Made by a program: the position numbers and the translations under genes. The notes beneath the pieces are model-generated. The model did no database searches, was not told the DNA's origin, and worked only from the letters and a program-made list of their open reading frames with translations. This document shows positions 22,675-29,425 of a stretch of 64,000 nt of DNA, one piece after another (position 1 is the first letter of the stretch; the number at the start of each line of letters is the position of its first letter). Location: positions 62,001-126,000 of the forward strand of contig NZ_JAABOS010000001.1 of assembly GCF_010078235.1 (NCBI RefSeq). The letters are read 5' to 3'. The DNA is from Cognatundibacterium crateris (lineage in GTDB: Bacteria > Pseudomonadota > Gammaproteobacteria > Burkholderiales > Burkholderiaceae_D).

Positions 22675-22698
22675 TTGATGCCGTAACTGCTGCGTAAT

Positions 22699-22747
22699 GC
22701 ACACTGCCTGCTCAGCCTTGGTCTGTTTGTCTGAGCAGGCAGTGTGC
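22699..22747 (+). terminator. Long perfect hairpin after nadC
   Basis: GCACACTGCCTGCTCAG (22699-22715) and CTGAGCAGGCAGTGTGC (22731-22747) are perfect 17-bp inverted copies around a 15-base loop. No T-run follows, so it is either an atypical terminator or a transcript-stabilising/processing structure at the nadC 3' end. Confidence 0.6.
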
Positions 22748-22888
22748 AGATGTGTTCCCGTTTATCTGCTTAATCCACCGCTTGAACCAGTGCTGTTGCC
22801 ACTGGTCGCAGCGTGGATGTGATGTCTGCTTTGACTGTTTATGCTGTCTTCACTGACACCTGATTTCAACCATACTAAGGAGAACAGC

Positions 22889-23212
22889 ATGAACACAATG
22901 AACGATACAAACAATACAAATAAGACAGAAAATACAAACAGCAAAAAGGACAGCGCATCGAATCCGGTTCTGGCATTTTGTCTGAACCTGGGTGCTACCT
23001 TGCGCTACTTCTGGCAATCCTATGTCATCCGCGTCGCAGCGACCAGCTGGAAACGCTGTCTGGGCGCGTGTTTTCTGGCCTTGCTGTTGGGCGCAATGTT
23101 AGGTTTGCCTGGTCTGGCATTCATACTGGTCATCACGACGCTGCTGGTCAAGTGCATCGTTCCACAAGCGGTGACAACAGTGGAAGTTATTGAGCAGGAT
23201 GGCAGGGAGTAA
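22889..23212 (+). CDS. Stand-alone membrane protein homologous to the neighbouring kinase sensor domain
   Basis: A 107-residue protein. Residues 1-24 are Asn/Thr/Lys-rich and disordered-looking (MNTMNDTNNTNKTENTN). Residues 25-91, from NPVL to the end of the second membrane segment, align without gaps to residues 7-73 of the kinase encoded next, with about 25 of 67 positions identical by eye. Shared anchors are NPVL, LN, TLR, W, WK, GxMLGL and LV. It has two membrane segments and no catalytic part. The ATG at 22889 has AAGGAG upstream; the stop is 4 bases before the kinase start. Likely a partial duplication of the sensor domain that could pair with or modulate the kinase (inference). Confidence 0.85.
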   Translation: MNTMNDTNNTNKTENTNSKKDSASNPVLAFCLNLGATLRYFWQSYVIRVAATSWKRCLGACFLALLLGAMLGLPGLAFILVITTLLVKCIVPQAVTTVEVIEQDGRE

Positions 23213-23216
23213 ACAC

Positions 23217-24098
23217 ATGCAACGCAAAGACGACAATCCGGTATTGGATACTGTACTGAATATGCTGGAAACGCTACGCATCCTGTGGTGGCGTTTTTTT
23301 GACTGGCTGGCAGTGGTGCCCTGGAAAAAACTGCTGTTGGTCTCGCTACTGGTGATGATCATAGGCGGCATGCTGGGCTTGGGCGCTTTGCCTCCGGTGC
23401 TGGTACTGTCCTCGGTATTGATTAAGAGTCTGGCTGGTGGCAAGCGGCGTGCCGAAATGGCGGCCAGTGCAGCCGCCAGCCGCGCCGACAGAGAGGCGCT
23501 GGAGCGGCGTGTGATAGAGGCTGAAATGGCGGCCTTGCAGGCGCAGATAGAGCCACACTTTCTGTTCAATACCCTGGCCCTGATCGGACAATTGATAGAA
23601 ACCGATCCCGCACGTGCTGCGTTGGTTCACACCGACCTGATCCGCTATCTGCGTGCAGCACTGCCACAAATGCGCCAGCCCGGCATGGGCAGGCTGGGGC
23701 AGCAAATCGACTTGTCGCGCGCTTATCTGAACATTATGCAAGCCAGGATGCAGGAACGTCTGAGTTATCAGATTGAGGTGCCTGAGGCTTTAGCGCAGGC
23801 GCAATTCCCTTCGATGATGATACAGACGCTGGTAGAAAATGCGATTAAACACGGTCTGGAACCCAAAACCGATGGTGGCCACATACATATCCATGCCAGC
23901 AGCGATGCACACAATATCCTGCTACAGGTCAGTGACAATGGCATTGGTCTGAATCCACATGCCGAGGATGGGGTAGGGCTGAGCAATATACGCGAACGGC
24001 TGCAGGCCTTGTATGGTATCCGCGCCGCGCTGATTACCGAAATTCCTGAATCCGGCGGCGCCAGTTTTACGCTGCAGATTCCCCTGGAAGCCGCATAG
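23217..24098 (+). CDS. LytS-type sensor histidine kinase with short two-helix membrane domain
   Basis: A 293-residue inner-membrane kinase. Two membrane segments lie in residues 36-72, then a charged coiled-coil linker at about 76-112. The His_kinase phosphoacceptor His114 is in AQIEPHFLFNTL, and the ATPase domain has MIQTLVENAIKHGLEP, VSDNGIGLNP and GLSNIRERLQALYG. There is almost no periplasmic loop, so the signal is probably sensed within the membrane or through a partner. The ATG at 23217 (after AGGGAG) begins MQRKDDNPVL. It sits between the sensor-domain paralogue and the regulator gene in a three-gene operon. Confidence 0.92.
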   Translation: MQRKDDNPVLDTVLNMLETLRILWWRFFDWLAVVPWKKLLLVSLLVMIIGGMLGLGALPPVLVLSSVLIKSLAGGKRRAEMAASAAASRADREALERRVIEAEMAALQAQIEPHFLFNTLALIGQLIETDPARAALVHTDLIRYLRAALPQMRQPGMGRLGQQIDLSRAYLNIMQARMQERLSYQIEVPEALAQAQFPSMMIQTLVENAIKHGLEPKTDGGHIHIHASSDAHNILLQVSDNGIGLNPHAEDGVGLSNIRERLQALYGIRAALITEIPESGGASFTLQIPLEAA

Positions 24099-24131
24099 AT
24101 AAACATAATTGAATTTACCTCGGAGCACACG

Positions 24132-24953
24132 ATGCAAAGAACAGCAATGATCGTTGATGATGAAGCGCCTATGCGCGACCTGTTACGCAGCCGCTTGCGT
24201 ACGGTCTGGCCGGACTTGCAGATAGTCGCTGAGGCAGCGAATGGAATTGTGGCGCTGGAACAGGCCGCGCTGAGTCAGCCTGACATCGTATTTCTGGATA
24301 TACGCATGCCCGGTAAGAATGGCATAGAAGCAGCGGCCGAACTGGCTGGTAAGGCTCAGCTGGTGTTTGTGACAGCCTACAATGATTATGCGATTTCTGC
24401 CTTTGAACGTGGTGCGATGGATTATTTGCTTAAGCCGGTTGAAGCCGATCGCCTGCAGCAAACCTGCGAGCGTTTGCAGCAGCGGCTGCAAGAGCGCGAC
24501 GCGGCCAGAAGTGCAGTCAAGCCAGCAGATGCAGATACTGCGCTGCCTGCGACCGCTTTGTCAGCCAAGGCGAGTCAGGTTCAGGATTTACTGACTCAAC
24601 TGATGCAGCAACAAGGTGCAAACAAAGAATATCTGCGATGGATACAGGCCAGTGTAGGCAATGCTTTACGCATGATCAGCACCAAAGAAATCCTGTATTT
24701 TAAGTCCGATGAAAAATACACCCTGGTGCAGACCGCGCAGGCTGAATACCTGATCCGAAAATCGCTGAAAGAGCTGGAAGACGAACTGGACCCGCAAGAG
24801 TTCTGGCGCATTCATCGCTCGGCCATCGTGAGCGTGTCCGCGATAGCCGAAGTCAGCCGCGATTTTCGCGGCCGCCTGATGCTGAGCGTAAAAGGGCAGC
24901 CGGAAAAGCTGGAAGTCAGCCGCAACCACACGCATTTGTTTCAGCAGATGTAG
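24132..24953 (+). CDS. LytTR-family response regulator
   Basis: A 273-residue regulator. The receiver at 1-120 contains MIVDDEAPMRDLL, Asp in DIVFLDIRMPGKNG and Lys in MDYLLKPVEAD. A linker follows, then a LytTR DNA-binding domain at about 170-270 (EILYFKSDEKYTLVQT, FWRIHRSAIVSVSAI). It lies 33 bases after the kinase stop and is the last gene of that operon. It converges with the ABC-exporter operon, whose last gene ends 31 bases away. Same overall architecture as the algR-like regulator at 11.3 kb, so two LytTR systems coexist here. Confidence 0.93.
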   Translation: MQRTAMIVDDEAPMRDLLRSRLRTVWPDLQIVAEAANGIVALEQAALSQPDIVFLDIRMPGKNGIEAAAELAGKAQLVFVTAYNDYAISAFERGAMDYLLKPVEADRLQQTCERLQQRLQERDAARSAVKPADADTALPATALSAKASQVQDLLTQLMQQQGANKEYLRWIQASVGNALRMISTKEILYFKSDEKYTLVQTAQAEYLIRKSLKELEDELDPQEFWRIHRSAIVSVSAIAEVSRDFRGRLMLSVKGQPEKLEVSRNHTHLFQQM

Positions 24954-24984: not shown

Positions 24985-26217
24985 TCAATCGCTGCGTAAA
25001 GCGGCAATCGGGTCCAGTTCCGCCGCTTTGCGGGCTGGGAATACGCCAAAACCCAGACCCACTGCGATACAGGCTGCGACAGCGGCGGCCAGGCTCAGTG
25101 GTGACCACGCGACTGACCAGCCTGCCAGCGCGGCGATGCTGTAAGCCGCGACCGCCCCAAGTAACAGACCGAGCAGGGCGCCGCTGCTGGCGATCACCAG
25201 CGCTTCGGCCAGAAACTGATCGATTACATCGCGCTTTCTCGCGCCCAGCGCACGTTTCAGGCCGATTTCTTTTTTGCGCTCCAGCACATTGGCCAGCATG
25301 ATGTTCATGATGCCTATGCCACCGACCAGCAGCGACACAGCGGCGATAGAGCTCATGACAATGGTGAACATTTTCTGGGTTTGCTGATTTTGCCGGTACA
25401 AGCCCATAGGCACAATCAGATCGGTGTCATCCGCACCTGCATGCCTGTCTTCCACCACTTGCTGCAATACGCGCGCAGCGGCTTCCGGTGCGACCTTGCC
25501 ATCCAGTTGCAGACTGATGGCGTCGGCTTCGTCATCCATCACAGGGAAATAAAAGCGTGCCTGCGCCGTTGCCCACGGCACGAACAGCCGTTCATCATCA
25601 AGTCCCAGCTTGATGCCTTCGAATTCGGACTTGCTCAGGGTGCGGTCAGCCAGCACACCCACCACCTCCAGCCAGACATGATTGAGCTTGATTTTTTCAC
25701 CGACAGCAGCCTGGTCACCGAATAGTTCTTTAGCCAGTCTGGGGCCCAGTACGCAGACCGCTGCCAGGCTGTTATTGCCTTCCTCGCTGAACCAGCGGCC
25801 TTTACCCATTTGCAGGCCGCTGTGCTGCATATACGCATTTGAGATCGCATAGGCTCGCCCCTCAATGACGCGTGACTGGTAGACCAGCTGATCGACCTTG
25901 ATTTCTTTGCGCAGCGCCACTGAGCGCGCGCCGGGGACCACGTTTAAGGCAGCCTGTGCATCGGCCTCACTCAAGCCTAATGAGCGGCTACGCAAATCTT
26001 TTTTGCGTTTGTAATCCATGGTCTTGCTTTCGACGATGATATTGTCGAGTCCCAGTTCTGCTACCAGTCGCAGCGCTTCGCGCTTGCTGCCTTCCCCGAC
26101 TGCAAGCATGGCGACGATGGCTGCAACACCAAACACCATGCCGAGTAAGGTGAGTCCGGTACGCAGCTTGCGGCGCTGCAGTTCTTCTATCGCTTCAAAC
26201 AATAAAGCACGGTTCAT
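24985..26217 (-). CDS. MacB/FtsX-type ABC transporter permease
   Basis: A 410-residue permease with the MacB topology. One N-terminal membrane segment (about 18-45, with GLTLLGMVFGVAAIVAML) is followed by a large periplasmic MacB_PCD domain and three C-terminal membrane segments (about 285-400). The signature VGGIGIMNIMLANVLERKKE and IGLKRALGARKRDV precede the last helices; it ends with LDPIAALRSD. MacB-type transporters push substrates out through adaptors and TolC rather than importing them. Its ATG overlaps the preceding adaptor stop by 4 bases. Last gene of the four-gene operon; substrate unknown. Confidence 0.93.
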   Translation of the reverse strand: MNRALLFEAIEELQRRKLRTGLTLLGMVFGVAAIVAMLAVGEGSKREALRLVAELGLDNIIVESKTMDYKRKKDLRSRSLGLSEADAQAALNVVPGARSVALRKEIKVDQLVYQSRVIEGRAYAISNAYMQHSGLQMGKGRWFSEEGNNSLAAVCVLGPRLAKELFGDQAAVGEKIKLNHVWLEVVGVLADRTLSKSEFEGIKLGLDDERLFVPWATAQARFYFPVMDDEADAISLQLDGKVAPEAAARVLQQVVEDRHAGADDTDLIVPMGLYRQNQQTQKMFTIVMSSIAAVSLLVGGIGIMNIMLANVLERKKEIGLKRALGARKRDVIDQFLAEALVIASSGALLGLLLGAVAAYSIAALAGWSVAWSPLSLAAAVAACIAVGLGFGVFPARKAAELDPIAALRSD

Positions 26218-27476
26218 GATTCGTCTTTTTCTTTGTTTTGTTTGTTTTGTTTGTTATCTTTGTTGTCTTTATTGGTTTTACTGTCGTCTTTCGGCAGTAA
26301 GAGCACACTGGCTCCTTCGTTCAGACCCGAGAGTATCTCGCTGCGTGCGATGCCGCGTTGTCCTACCTGAACTGCTACGCGTCTGATCTGATTACTGTCC
26401 TGGATATCGGCAAAGTATTTTCCGTCTTGTTCTGTCAGTGCGATATTTGGGACGCTATGTGCTTTGGGTAAATCGATGAGATGGATGTCGCCGCGTATCG
26501 CTTGTCCCGGACGGATGTGATACTGGCTGATGCTGGCATCATCAAGCGCTGCTTCAACTTCTATATATTTCACCGGGGATTGCGCGTGCTGGGTGCTGGC
26601 GGTGGTGCCGATTTTTGTGATCTGCAGCTTCACATCCTGCCCGCTGCCTGCCAGTCTGATGGTGAGTGGCAGACCCGTTTTGAGGCCAATTGCACGCGCT
26701 TCGGGCACCTTGAAGCTGGCCAGCAGTTTATCCATTTGTGGCAGCACGCCGAAATCGCTGCCCGGCGTCGTTGTCATGCCCACCTGAGGCTTATTTCCAG
26801 TCCAGGATTCAGTCAGTTTCAGCACGCCATCATGCGGTGCGCGCAACTCCAGTGCCGCCAGGCTTTTTTTCTGGCGGCTGGCTGCTATGGTTTCTACTTG
26901 CGACTTGAGCACGGCTTCATTGGCTTGCCGGCGCGTACTGACCTGGGTATTTTTCCAATTGAGGAAGCGCTGTTTATTGTTCAGGAAAGTCTGGTCCTGT
27001 ATCGCATCCAGAACGCGGTTTTTGGAGAATAAGGCTTGCTCGGCACCGGCATAGCGTTCGCTCAATAGCAGGTCGGCAACGACCTTGGATTGATCCGCAT
27101 GTAATTCGGCCAGACTTTTGACTTCCGTTGCCTGTAACTCTTGTTCGGCCAATTCTTTGCGCAGCAGGTCAAACTCAGCCTGGCTCAATTCCAGCCTGGA
27201 ATTGGGTGCGTCGAAACGCGCAATCAGCTGATCTTTTTTAACCAGACTGCCTTCTGCAACTATCTCGGTGATTACTCTGGTTTCCCAGCCTTCGCCAGGA
27301 ATCAGCAACTGGGTTTTTTCAGCGGCGCTGATTTCACCTTCTACGCTCAGGCTTTCTTGCCAAGGCTTTTCAGAAAAAATTTCCGTCGCTGTTTGCGTAG
27401 CGGGCTGGTCGCTACAGGCAGCCAGATTCAGGCTTAGCACTAAAGTGCTTACAGTGATGTAGCTGGAATTTTTCAT
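26214..27476 (-). CDS. HlyD/MacA-like periplasmic adaptor lipoprotein with Asn/Lys-rich tail
   Basis: A 420-residue membrane-fusion adaptor. A lipoprotein signal with lipobox LNLAAC puts the lipidated Cys at residue 21. A lipoyl-like half-motif (VAEGSLVKKDQLIARFDAPN) is followed by a long helical hairpin (about 100-205), the second lipoyl half (RAPHDGVLKL) and a beta-barrel region. The last 25 residues are a low-complexity N/K/D/Q string (KDNKDNKQNKQNKEKDES), encoded by short T/G repeats on the + strand. It overlaps both neighbours by 4 bases. It would bridge the permease to an outer-membrane channel; none is encoded nearby. Confidence 0.9.
   Translation of the reverse strand: MKNSSYITVSTLVLSLNLAACSDQPATQTATEIFSEKPWQESLSVEGEISAAEKTQLLIPGEGWETRVITEIVAEGSLVKKDQLIARFDAPNSRLELSQAEFDLLRKELAEQELQATEVKSLAELHADQSKVVADLLLSERYAGAEQALFSKNRVLDAIQDQTFLNNKQRFLNWKNTQVSTRRQANEAVLKSQVETIAASRQKKSLAALELRAPHDGVLKLTESWTGNKPQVGMTTTPGSDFGVLPQMDKLLASFKVPEARAIGLKTGLPLTIRLAGSGQDVKLQITKIGTTASTQHAQSPVKYIEVEAALDDASISQYHIRPGQAIRGDIHLIDLPKAHSVPNIALTEQDGKYFADIQDSNQIRRVAVQVGQRGIARSEILSGLNEGASVLLLPKDDSKTNKDNKDNKQNKQNKEKDES
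26218..26290. repeat. Simple-sequence T/G-rich tract encoding the adaptor C-terminal tail
   Basis: Iterated TTTGT/TTTTG units (for example TTTGTTTTGTTTGTTTTGTT) over about 60 bases lie at the end of the adaptor gene, immediately before the permease start on the minus strand. Such tracts can change length by slippage; here a length change not divisible by three would disturb the coupled start of the permease gene. Confidence 0.6.
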
Positions 27477-29425
27477 GCGCCTTCCTTCGCGCTGCTTGTC
27501 GCGCTGCCTGGTACAGACGCCGTTTGCAACTGGATTTGCACCTGTACTGCTGAGCCAGGCTTTAAGCTGGCCTGACTGTTTTGTTCGAATTCCAGTTCAA
27601 TATCGCGCACTATGCCCGGTTGGGTGGCGGATTTGCTGTGAAATACTTTGCCTAGCTGAGTGATGCGCGCGCGCAGTACCTGATTCCCGCCTGGTACGCT
27701 GACTTTGGCTTCCTGACCTGTACGCAGGTAGGCAGCCTGCGCCTCTGCGACCTGCGCATTCACAAATAATTGTTTGGGGTCGGACAGATTAGCAAGCGAC
27801 TGGCCCATCCAGATTTTGCTTCCTGAGCTAAATTTCTCTTCATTGAAATTGTTTTTATAGATCAGGATGCCGGGCTGCTCTGCCTTCACTGCCATACGGG
27901 TCAGGCCTTGTTCCAGTACGTTGATTTTGTTTTGGCTTTGCATTAATTCAAACTCCAGTGCTTTTTTCTCAGCCTGGCGCGCGCGCTTACGGGTCTCGTT
28001 GAGTTGTTTTTCGATGTCCAGCAGCTTCAGCGATAATTCTTTATCGATCACCAGTTTGTCATAATCCACCCGGCGGATTAACTCCTTAGGCATACTGGCT
28101 TTACGGGCCGCCTTATCCGCATTAGCGCGCGCTTCATCGACTGCCAGCGTGGCATTGCGTTCAGCTTCAGCCTGATCGAGCCTGAGTTTTTCCAGTGCCC
28201 GCTGTTTTTCATTGAGGGAGCTTTTGTGTCTGGCTAAATGGGTCATGACCTCGGCTGCCTGAAACTGGGTAATCAGATCACCAGCTTTGAGCAGGCTGCC
28301 CTCAGGCGCGAGCTGGGTGATGGTGTATTGCCAGATATGTGGAATCGCAGGCGGCACGACCGGCAAATTAACGCGTGACTGTACTTCGCCCTCAAGGGTG
28401 AGTTTGGCGGGTGCGATGATTTTATTGGTGCTGGCTGCCTTCTGGTCTGCAGGCTGTATCAGTACACTCATGCCTGGCGCAGCCAATTGCCTGAACTGCT
28501 CCGGAACCGGAATATCTATTCTGAAATAACGTCCATTACCCCATTGGGCCTTGAGTTCCGGTGCCTGAGAAATGGTTTTGATTATGCTGTCTGCCTGTTG
28601 CCCGGGCAGGGCATCAAACTGCAGGCTGACGGCCATGTTTTCCCGGATATGCAGCCGGTCCGCCTCCAGTACCCAGCCTTTCACTTCAATTTTCCCGGTT
28701 CCTATGATGGTGCCCGCCAGGGTGCCTGGATGGACGCTGGAACCTTCATCGATACGTTCTTGCGGCCATTGATTGAAATTGTGGGTTACGAAGCCATCCT
28801 GGGTGGCGATGACTGAGGAGAGTGCAATTTCCTGTTTGGTAAATTCCAGTTTGATGTGTTGTTTGCGGATGTCCAGTTCGCCATCCTGTTTCATGCGCAG
28901 CACCGCAGCCTGTGAGGTTTTCGCGGCAAGCCGCCTGACTTCCAGATCGCGTATTGCTTTTTCTTTTTCGGTCTGATTTTTGTCAAAGTCCAGTGCGCTA
29001 ATCTGCGTCTTGGGTAAAGCAGCATCCACTTCAGCTTTATCATGGGCCGTCTGTGTGACAGCGAAGGCTTTATCTGCTTCCAGTGCGGCCACTTCCAGTT
29101 TCGCCACTTCGGCATCCAGTTTGGCGCGCGTCTGTTCCAGCGTGGTCTGTAATTGCTCCAGTGTGCCTGCGTTTTGGGCTTCTATGCTTAACACCACATC
29201 GCCTTTACGCACAAACTTTCCTTCACCCACAAATTTCCGTAATGTGACAGGCGAAGATTTGGACGGTGGAACAAAGATCAGCTGCGAGTCTGCCGCGATC
29301 ACTTCGCCTGTGATGAGGACTTTACGCTGTTTGACAGATGGCATTTTGCTTTGGGGATCAGCAGCCAGTGCTGGTGATAACAGTGCGAACAATAGGGCAC
29401 TGTGGATATACGAAGAGAATTTCAT
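27473..29425 (-). CDS. Tandem (double-length) HlyD-family periplasmic adaptor
   Basis: A 650-residue exported protein with a signal peptide at 1-21, about twice the usual adaptor length. It contains two adaptor-like units in series. Unit A has lipoyl half GEVIAADSQLIFVPPSKS and VGEGKFVRKGDVVLSIE (about 39-82), helical hairpin 85-205, returning half VIATQDGFVTHNF (205-217) and beta-barrel to about 325. Unit B starts LTLEGEVQSRVNLPVV (342-357), with LAPEGSLLKAGDLITQF (372-388), hairpin 392-508 and the return AEQPGILIYKNNF (515-527). It overlaps both neighbouring genes by 4 bases. A fused or duplicated adaptor with unknown substrate. Confidence 0.85.
   Translation of the reverse strand: MKFSSYIHSALLFALLSPALAADPQSKMPSVKQRKVLITGEVIAADSQLIFVPPSKSSPVTLRKFVGEGKFVRKGDVVLSIEAQNAGTLEQLQTTLEQTRAKLDAEVAKLEVAALEADKAFAVTQTAHDKAEVDAALPKTQISALDFDKNQTEKEKAIRDLEVRRLAAKTSQAAVLRMKQDGELDIRKQHIKLEFTKQEIALSSVIATQDGFVTHNFNQWPQERIDEGSSVHPGTLAGTIIGTGKIEVKGWVLEADRLHIRENMAVSLQFDALPGQQADSIIKTISQAPELKAQWGNGRYFRIDIPVPEQFRQLAAPGMSVLIQPADQKAASTNKIIAPAKLTLEGEVQSRVNLPVVPPAIPHIWQYTITQLAPEGSLLKAGDLITQFQAAEVMTHLARHKSSLNEKQRALEKLRLDQAEAERNATLAVDEARANADKAARKASMPKELIRRVDYDKLVIDKELSLKLLDIEKQLNETRKRARQAEKKALEFELMQSQNKINVLEQGLTRMAVKAEQPGILIYKNNFNEEKFSSGSKIWMGQSLANLSDPKQLFVNAQVAEAQAAYLRTGQEAKVSVPGGNQVLRARITQLGKVFHSKSATQPGIVRDIELEFEQNSQASLKPGSAVQVQIQLQTASVPGSATSSAKEGA

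Follow-up and report, generated by a model that had tools for sequence, protein, structure and literature searches.

A putative LytTR-regulated operon of Cognatundibacterium crateris headed by a gene for a free-standing relative of the kinase membrane hairpin

The genes of the locus and their surroundings

The DNA analysed, hereafter the window, is a stretch of 64 kb from Cognatundibacterium crateris in which three genes of the forward strand follow each other: one for a small membrane protein of 107 aa (22889–23212), one for a LytS-type histidine kinase of 293 aa (23217–24098) and one for a response regulator of 273 aa with a LytTR DNA-binding domain (24132–24953). An initial annotation had placed a 107-residue protein at the head of a LytS kinase operon with a LytTR regulator, and its coordinates were right. 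The stop of the small ORF is separated from the kinase start by 4 nt, and a Shine-Dalgarno-like AAGGAG (22877–22882, same strand) was read from the sequence before the small gene. According to Pfam and hydropathy, the kinase consists of a membrane hairpin (residues 1–72) followed by His_kinase (PF06580, E 1.3e-19) and HATPase_c (PF02518, E 3.3e-11) domains, both above cut-off; it carries EPHFLFN and ENAIKHG and has the PF06580 plus HATPase_c composition of the LytS type. In the regulator, Pfam detected Response_reg (PF00072, E 2.1e-21) and LytTR (PF04397, E 2.2e-26), that is, a REC and a LytTR domain.

The upstream neighbour of the triad is nadC, named by reading of its translation. Between nadC and the operon lies a perfect 18-bp inverted repeat with 15 nt between the arms (22698–22748, no strand assigned), probably the end of the nadC transcript; since the repeat has no T-run and a terminator scan gave no match there, we infer this role. 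On the other side, a MacB-like permease and two HlyD/MacA-like adaptors are encoded convergently with the triad (24985–29425, reverse strand), and none of the ten best operator matrix matches in the window (see below) precedes them. The neighbourhood (nadC 5′, MacB/HlyD 3′) was considered as a functional clue and rejected: among the triad loci longer than 7 kb, nadC adjoins the triad in three (L154, L159 and L160) and MacB in L159 and L160 only, the MacB-like/HlyD-like neighbours being confined to genomes G049 and G003, and at the other loci the surroundings differ.

Conservation of the triad and homology of its first product

The kinase was detected at E ≤ 1e-70 in 34 of 43 genomes of the genus and in 91 of 294 genomes of the family (six of 44 genera). 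From the kinase-bearing genomes (34 of the genus plus 71 further ones of the family), 103 loci were used; G281, with a truncated match (48% complete), was excluded, as was G044, where the kinase is split across contig ends and its coordinates put a small gene immediately in front. When ORF segments of at least 50 aa in the 900 bp 5′ of the kinase were searched with iterated profiles, a small two-helix gene was found directly upstream in 101 of the 103 loci, distributed over six genera and always on the kinase strand, without any opposite-strand match; the two remaining loci lacked an adjacent small gene also on reading three frames. The stop codon of the small gene and the start codon of the kinase lie −8 to +5 nt apart in 76 of the 101 loci, overlap in 30 and are never more than 90 nt apart. 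A regulator homolog was likewise present in 101 of 103 loci, the exceptions being L020 (1.5 kb downstream covered) and L038 (contig ending inside the kinase). The initial annotation had made its reading depend on conservation of the small gene beside the kinase in relatives, and such conservation was clearly borne out for the window's type of small protein.

A set of named records (80 loci kept of 554), which overlaps the genome set and is not independent of it, had the small gene at 44 of 48 loci with a kinase match starting by residue 26, the loci without it being L181, L182, L192 and L223. This set takes in Massilia, Duganella, Pseudoduganella, Rugamonas and three Chromobacterium, and in the latter three the small gene is also directly upstream of the kinase. 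Among 369 sampled genomes of the class, a sample that drew no Chromobacterium match, the kinase was detected at E ≤ 1e-55 in one, the window's own, and the small profile matched nine at E ≤ 0.01, none of the eight besides the window's own with an E-value better than 3e-4.

Neither a Pfam domain nor, as already claimed, a kinase module was found in the small protein. Its family is not named in Pfam, NCBIfam or PHROGs; its members appear in databases as 'hypothetical', 'uncharacterized' or 'uncharacterized membrane protein', and one other database protein was found for the window's protein, from Undibacterium rugosum (86% identical). By BLASTP, its residues 18–90 aligned with residues 2–72 of the kinase (27/73 identical, E 2e-11). 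The gap-free alignment with about 25 of 67 identities initially counted by eye is correct from NPVL onward, where the offset is constantly 18 residues, whereas BLASTP introduced a single 2-residue gap near the N-terminus. According to a text pattern, the small proteins of the 101 loci were sorted into 22 of the window type (type A) and 79 others (type B). N25, W54 and K88 are invariant across 18 type-A sequences and align exactly with N7 (nearly invariant), W36 and K70 (both invariant) of 11 kinases. From hydropathy and an AlphaFold model (m7b28de863d7c) of low confidence (mean pLDDT 64.5), helix 26–51 is followed by helices 54–71 and 74–90, the latter two taken as the membrane hairpin. The model has a fourth helix at 92–103, and is consistent with, though no proof of, the hairpin-joining mechanism considered below.

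Profile comparisons confirmed that the type-A protein is a homolog of the kinase membrane hairpin, as the initial annotation had claimed from the sequences of the window; a lack of homology at profile level, which would have spoken against that claim, was clearly not observed for type A. Type A and the kinase N-terminus matched with E 2.9e-23 and a score of 120; in nine profile–profile comparisons, real kinase profiles scored 33–120 and reversed or column-shuffled controls at most 21. In 11,437 ORF segments from the loci collected for this search plus the window, the A profile (22 proteins) matched all 122 labelled triad kinase ORFs below 1e-3 (best 1e-22). It also matched six kinases without the label, of which two belong to the triad all the same, and 28 unrelated ORFs at E ≤ 10, none of them below 1e-3. 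For type B, homology to the kinase is suggestive: profile–profile comparison gave E 8.2e-8 with B-lineage kinases and 7.6e-6 with A-lineage kinases, and searched against sequences the B profile found five of 122 kinases below 1e-3 (best 1e-4) and one unrelated ORF at 1.1e-5.

The dN/dS of the small gene was 0.08, 0.19 and 0.11 in three pairs among the window, G001 and G049; therefore, the small ORF is a gene under purifying selection. For type A, chance similarity or a relic was rejected on the basis of this selection together with the profile controls. A small ORF that serves mainly for translational coupling, or is a duplication relic whose product has no function of its own, would suit the stop–start overlap in 30 loci and the near-overlap in most others, but is most improbable in view of these dN/dS values, of the invariant N, W and K and of the paralogs found elsewhere with their own operator.

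The bare hairpin at its N-terminus leaves the kinase almost without an extracytoplasmic part, and the small protein might then be the signal receptor needed to switch it on, much as BceS, a two-helix kinase without an extracytoplasmic domain, depends on a partner transporter (PMC8534201). This role appears quite unlikely, as divergent small types precede the same kinase, which in two genomes has no adjacent small gene at all.

In a tree of 98 rows, with few columns (78) and 43 open forks, the 42 kinase hairpins formed one group (support 99). The kinase side of the deepest split also held the 15 rows of type A, the small proteins of the three Chromobacterium, the orphan of G009 and a long-branched B protein (G022), whereas 24 of the 25 B rows used clustered with 12 paralogs from other genome places and not with the kinase. 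The small proteins of Chromobacterium aquaticum and C. alticapitis rank their own kinase first of 25 hairpins and that of C. subtsugae ranks it second, a pattern that, in three genomes only, agrees with the small gene having arisen from the kinase more than once or with the two having changed in concert. In the 22 Undibacterium type-A genomes the own kinase ranked from 1 to 18 of 25, thus not systematically closest. Correlation between small-protein and kinase-hairpin distances after control for the kinase core was weak (partial r 0.29–0.40), so that the mirror-tree was set aside as support for a partnership. In two Chromobacterium species an extra small ORF precedes the first small gene (L220, 2004 onward; L221, 2212 onward); that of L221 matches the A profile at 4.8e-5 and the kinase profile at 4.3e-6, and that of L220, alike by eye only, gave no profile match at E ≤ 10.

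Small genes related to type B also occur without the triad kinase. At E ≤ 0.001, a mixed A/B profile had matches, those to the kinase hairpin itself included, in 173 of 343 genomes of the family, and 13 of the further small-family places were fetched. Four of them (L256, L260, L265 and L268) have a small paralog near a second LytS kinase, a LytTR regulator and a LiaF-type protein (by Pfam for L268 only), and nine are stand-alone paralogs (L257, L258, L259, L261, L262, L263, L266, L267 and L269). Genome G009 carries an orphan type-A gene (L161, 3938–4225) with an operator score of 36.9 and no kinase at E ≤ 1e-70. On contig C12 of the genome that the window comes from, a further LytS kinase has an N-terminus related to that of the triad kinase, but with about 130 residues between its two helices. 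An insert of about 130 residues likewise parts the N-terminal helices of the paralogous LytS kinase at L314 (886 onward), a layout that the triad kinase appears to share except for the insert. The regulator adjoining the C12 kinase is 56% identical to the triad regulator; members of its family also occur in genomes that lack the triad, where they could act on the operators.

A putative operator and its candidate regulon

In front of the small gene, a matrix search together with reading by eye delimited a putative operator with three LytTR/AlgR-like boxes, CCGTTTATC, CCGCTTGAA and CCACTGGTC, about 20–21 bp apart (22755–22810, forward strand). A putative −10 hexamer, TATGCT, lies on the same strand 29 nt after the operator end (22840–22845). 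A 56-bp element recurs upstream of the small genes in general, its three boxes having the consensus CCgTTtATC, ACCG.TcA.C and CagTTcGTCGgA at lags of 20–21 and 41. The boxes resemble the AlgR core, CCGTTCGTC (PMC4064291), and their spacing that of LytTR systems (PMC6193735). With direct repeats, spacers of about 12 bp and a position just 5′ of the core promoter, the predicted promoter fits the pattern of LytTR-controlled promoters.

As a strict text pattern, the operator was matched in no more than 19 of 101 upstream regions, 18 of these at a single distance, and a matrix was fitted instead to all regions, which are kinase-linked Oxalobacteraceae sites only. The window's operator, itself among the matrix sources, scored 37.6, the next best match in the 64 kb being 2.5. 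Among the 100 of 101 upstream regions that had at least 150 nt and were hence scored, 97 reached at least 20 and three stayed at 3.9, 7.4 and 12.2, compared to a maximum of −0.8 in shuffled regions with the same matrix. As the matrix was made from the scored regions, expectation–maximization (EM) on shuffled regions is the fairer test, and it gave medians of 7.9–9.1 for these, against 44 (seeded start) and 11–44 (six random starts) for the real ones. A TAyArT hexamer at +28/+29 after the element was present in 57 of the 100 regions vs. about three in shuffles; the window's own hexamer departs from this pattern. Kinases that lack the small gene (L019 and L021) still have the operator in front of them, and it is found upstream in the three Chromobacterium loci with scores of 25–29.

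The operator also accompanies small genes away from the kinase operon. Fourteen loci have a small gene that is not the first of a kinase operon. In 12 of them, the highest-scoring match of the whole locus lay 122–180 nt before the small start, four of the 12 scoring only 3.7–15.2; at the other two, L257 and L261, no operator preceded the small gene. Therefore, the small genes are candidate members of the regulon as well as possible partners of the kinase.

A sequence-only promoter model from 35 kinase-linked sites was run on 25 and on 195 genomes. At E ≤ 0.001, promoter model R1 had matches in 53 of the 195 family genomes; under stricter filters, the kinase-bearing G044 and G061 were among the genomes without a match. 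Fifty loci were examined out of 63 matches in the 195 genomes, taking the best matrix match in each. A small-family gene followed within 320 nt in 33 of the 50, largely by construction for the kinase-linked matches, and six of these 33 are not kinase-linked (G063, G147, G173, G176, G198 and G228). Of the 13 other matches, 12 lie just before a small gene by coordinates, five of them stand-alone (G105, G128, G188, G218 and G238), and the remaining one is G241:C16. At the 17 remaining loci, with names given by eye, the site is followed by HlyD/MacA-like adaptors (three), an ABC ATPase (four), DUF2807-like proteins (three), a LytS hairpin kinase (L355), a 65–67-aa membrane protein (two) and four others. 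Downstream of weaker sites in the 25-genome run lie genes for a HAAS protein (L300, by Pfam) and for small proteins, either membrane-bound or secreted. Operator and −10 element, common to Oxalobacteraceae and the three Chromobacterium, point to a candidate envelope regulon of the LytTR/AlgR type, with efflux-like, DUF2807-like and small membrane proteins.

Two of these products deserve separate mention. At L355, from another genus, the operator stands directly before a hairpin-bearing paralog kinase itself. The 65–67-aa membrane protein (WPLALLALxLYP...), for which Pfam gave no match, follows the operator in more than one genus (L279, 1498–1922; L309; L366; L371): L279, in the window's own genome, and L309, in G001, have the same 65-aa protein downstream of the site, and the operator scores of L366 and L371 are 8.5 and 23.3. 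L279, scored 26 by the matrix, was also among the matches to a one-mismatch operator pattern in the window's own genome, a search discarded as mostly chance (10 matches vs. 8 for the backward control).

Such a regulon could also mean that the small proteins are its outputs, protecting or remodelling the membrane and sharing the sensing hairpin with the kinase without direct contact. The operator before 12 of the 14 members that do not head a kinase operon, its place before adaptors, ABC ATPases, DUF2807-like proteins and the 65-aa membrane protein, as named by eye, and the location of some paralogs near another LytS/LytTR pair and a LiaF-type protein all argue for this explanation. It leaves unexplained, however, the near-constant position directly before one kinase and the similarity to the own kinase in Chromobacterium, and we consider it possible though somewhat unlikely.

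Proposed mechanism and comparison with known systems

The reading we prefer, with a rough probability of 0.45, is that the three genes form an autoregulated operon whose small product is a LytTR-induced, MgrB-like feedback partner of the kinase hairpin. Homology, conservation, gene order and the geometry of operator and −10 hexamer were established from sequence; the steps built on them are conditional. The promoter at 22755–22845 would be activated by the LytTR regulator, or by one of its paralogs if that binds DNA in a similar way, and the three genes would be transcribed from it as a single unit. The first product would be a free membrane hairpin built like that of the kinase; within the inner membrane, it could associate with its counterpart in the kinase and adjust kinase activity. 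By analogy with MgrB on PhoQ, the effect would most likely be negative feedback, a first guess made because the small protein is a product of the promoter that it would restrain and because regulon-wide copies exist.

The operator suggests that the small protein is induced, as an MgrB-like function would imply, and the conserved pairing of kinase and small protein in relatives suggests that the latter helps to tune the former. This reading is favoured by type-A homology, the shared N/W/K, the closely spaced upstream position on the kinase strand in 101 of 103 loci, purifying selection, the own-kinase ranks of Chromobacterium, the operator scores, the −10 hexamer and the operator kept before kinases without a small gene. 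Against it speak the Undibacterium ranks of 1–18, the weak mirror-tree r, the type-B majority, whose homology to the kinase was not established by sequence search, the two of 103 loci without a small gene, the G009 orphan and the paralogs away from any kinase. The initial annotation had suggested that the small protein could form mixed dimers with the kinase or act as receptor or decoy; this reading was modified because the upstream gene is of the divergent type B in 79 of 101 loci and because operators also occur without an adjacent kinase. A bolder version, tentative and rather doubtful, is that a LytTR-induced pool of free-standing sensor hairpins, some encoded beside LytS kinases and some alone, enters kinase membrane bundles and sets their gain, as diffusible kinase subunits that in some lineages (Chromobacterium) would have been derived anew from the kinase or homogenised with it.

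For the small membrane proteins already known to tune kinases, it is difficult to predict which kinase is targeted and how it is bound. Where a free relative of a kinase hairpin exists in nature and is conserved, formation of heteromers is an obvious hypothesis, and the gene gives genetic access to intramembrane-sensing kinases, few of which have a known signal. As the operator defines a candidate envelope regulon of Oxalobacteraceae, input and output could be tested together. No description of the small protein was found in the literature searched, which covered few subscription journals.

The likeness proposed to MgrB–PhoQ is that a small membrane protein contacts a kinase within the membrane to affect it and, in the feedback case, is itself controlled by the same system. 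MgrB is induced by PhoP. To our knowledge, and as far as the consulted parts of the source go, MgrB, SafA and UgtL are neither homologs of the kinase sensor nor encoded by the first gene of the kinase operon, in contrast to the small protein here. All three have been described as modulating a histidine kinase (PMC8534201). The HdrRM/BrsRM LytTR Regulatory Systems, whose 9-bp direct repeats with mostly 12-bp spacers lie just upstream of the promoter, share with the triad a LytTR regulator, a membrane protein in the operon and the direct repeats, but pair a regulator with a membrane inhibitor encoded downstream of it, without a histidine kinase (PMC6193735). The triad falls outside that class, as its regulator has a REC domain, a kinase gene precedes it and the small gene is first.

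AlgZ is a LytS-type kinase. AlgZ/AlgR thus combines such a kinase with a LytTR regulator, and the AlgR core is like the triad boxes, but neither a small hairpin gene nor three boxes at 20–21 bp before a −10 hexamer are described in the consulted parts of the source (PMC4064291). In ChrS/HrrS, a kinase-derived protein without kinase activity also acts via heterodimers, although that pseudokinase arose by a laboratory frameshift in a full-length kinase and is not a natural free-standing membrane domain (PMC9491836). LiaF–LiaS and the PSP/Toastrack/HAAS modules are comparable as envelope-stress partners, and in Firmicutes LytTR occurs with Toastrack/LiaI-LiaF-TM operons, but the small hairpin is not described in the portions consulted (PMC11237479). 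We rate the system as accessory-protein control of a two-component system in a new variant; also new is the predicted conserved promoter, in which three AlgR/LytTR-like direct repeats spaced by 20–21 bp are followed at a constant distance by a −10 hexamer.
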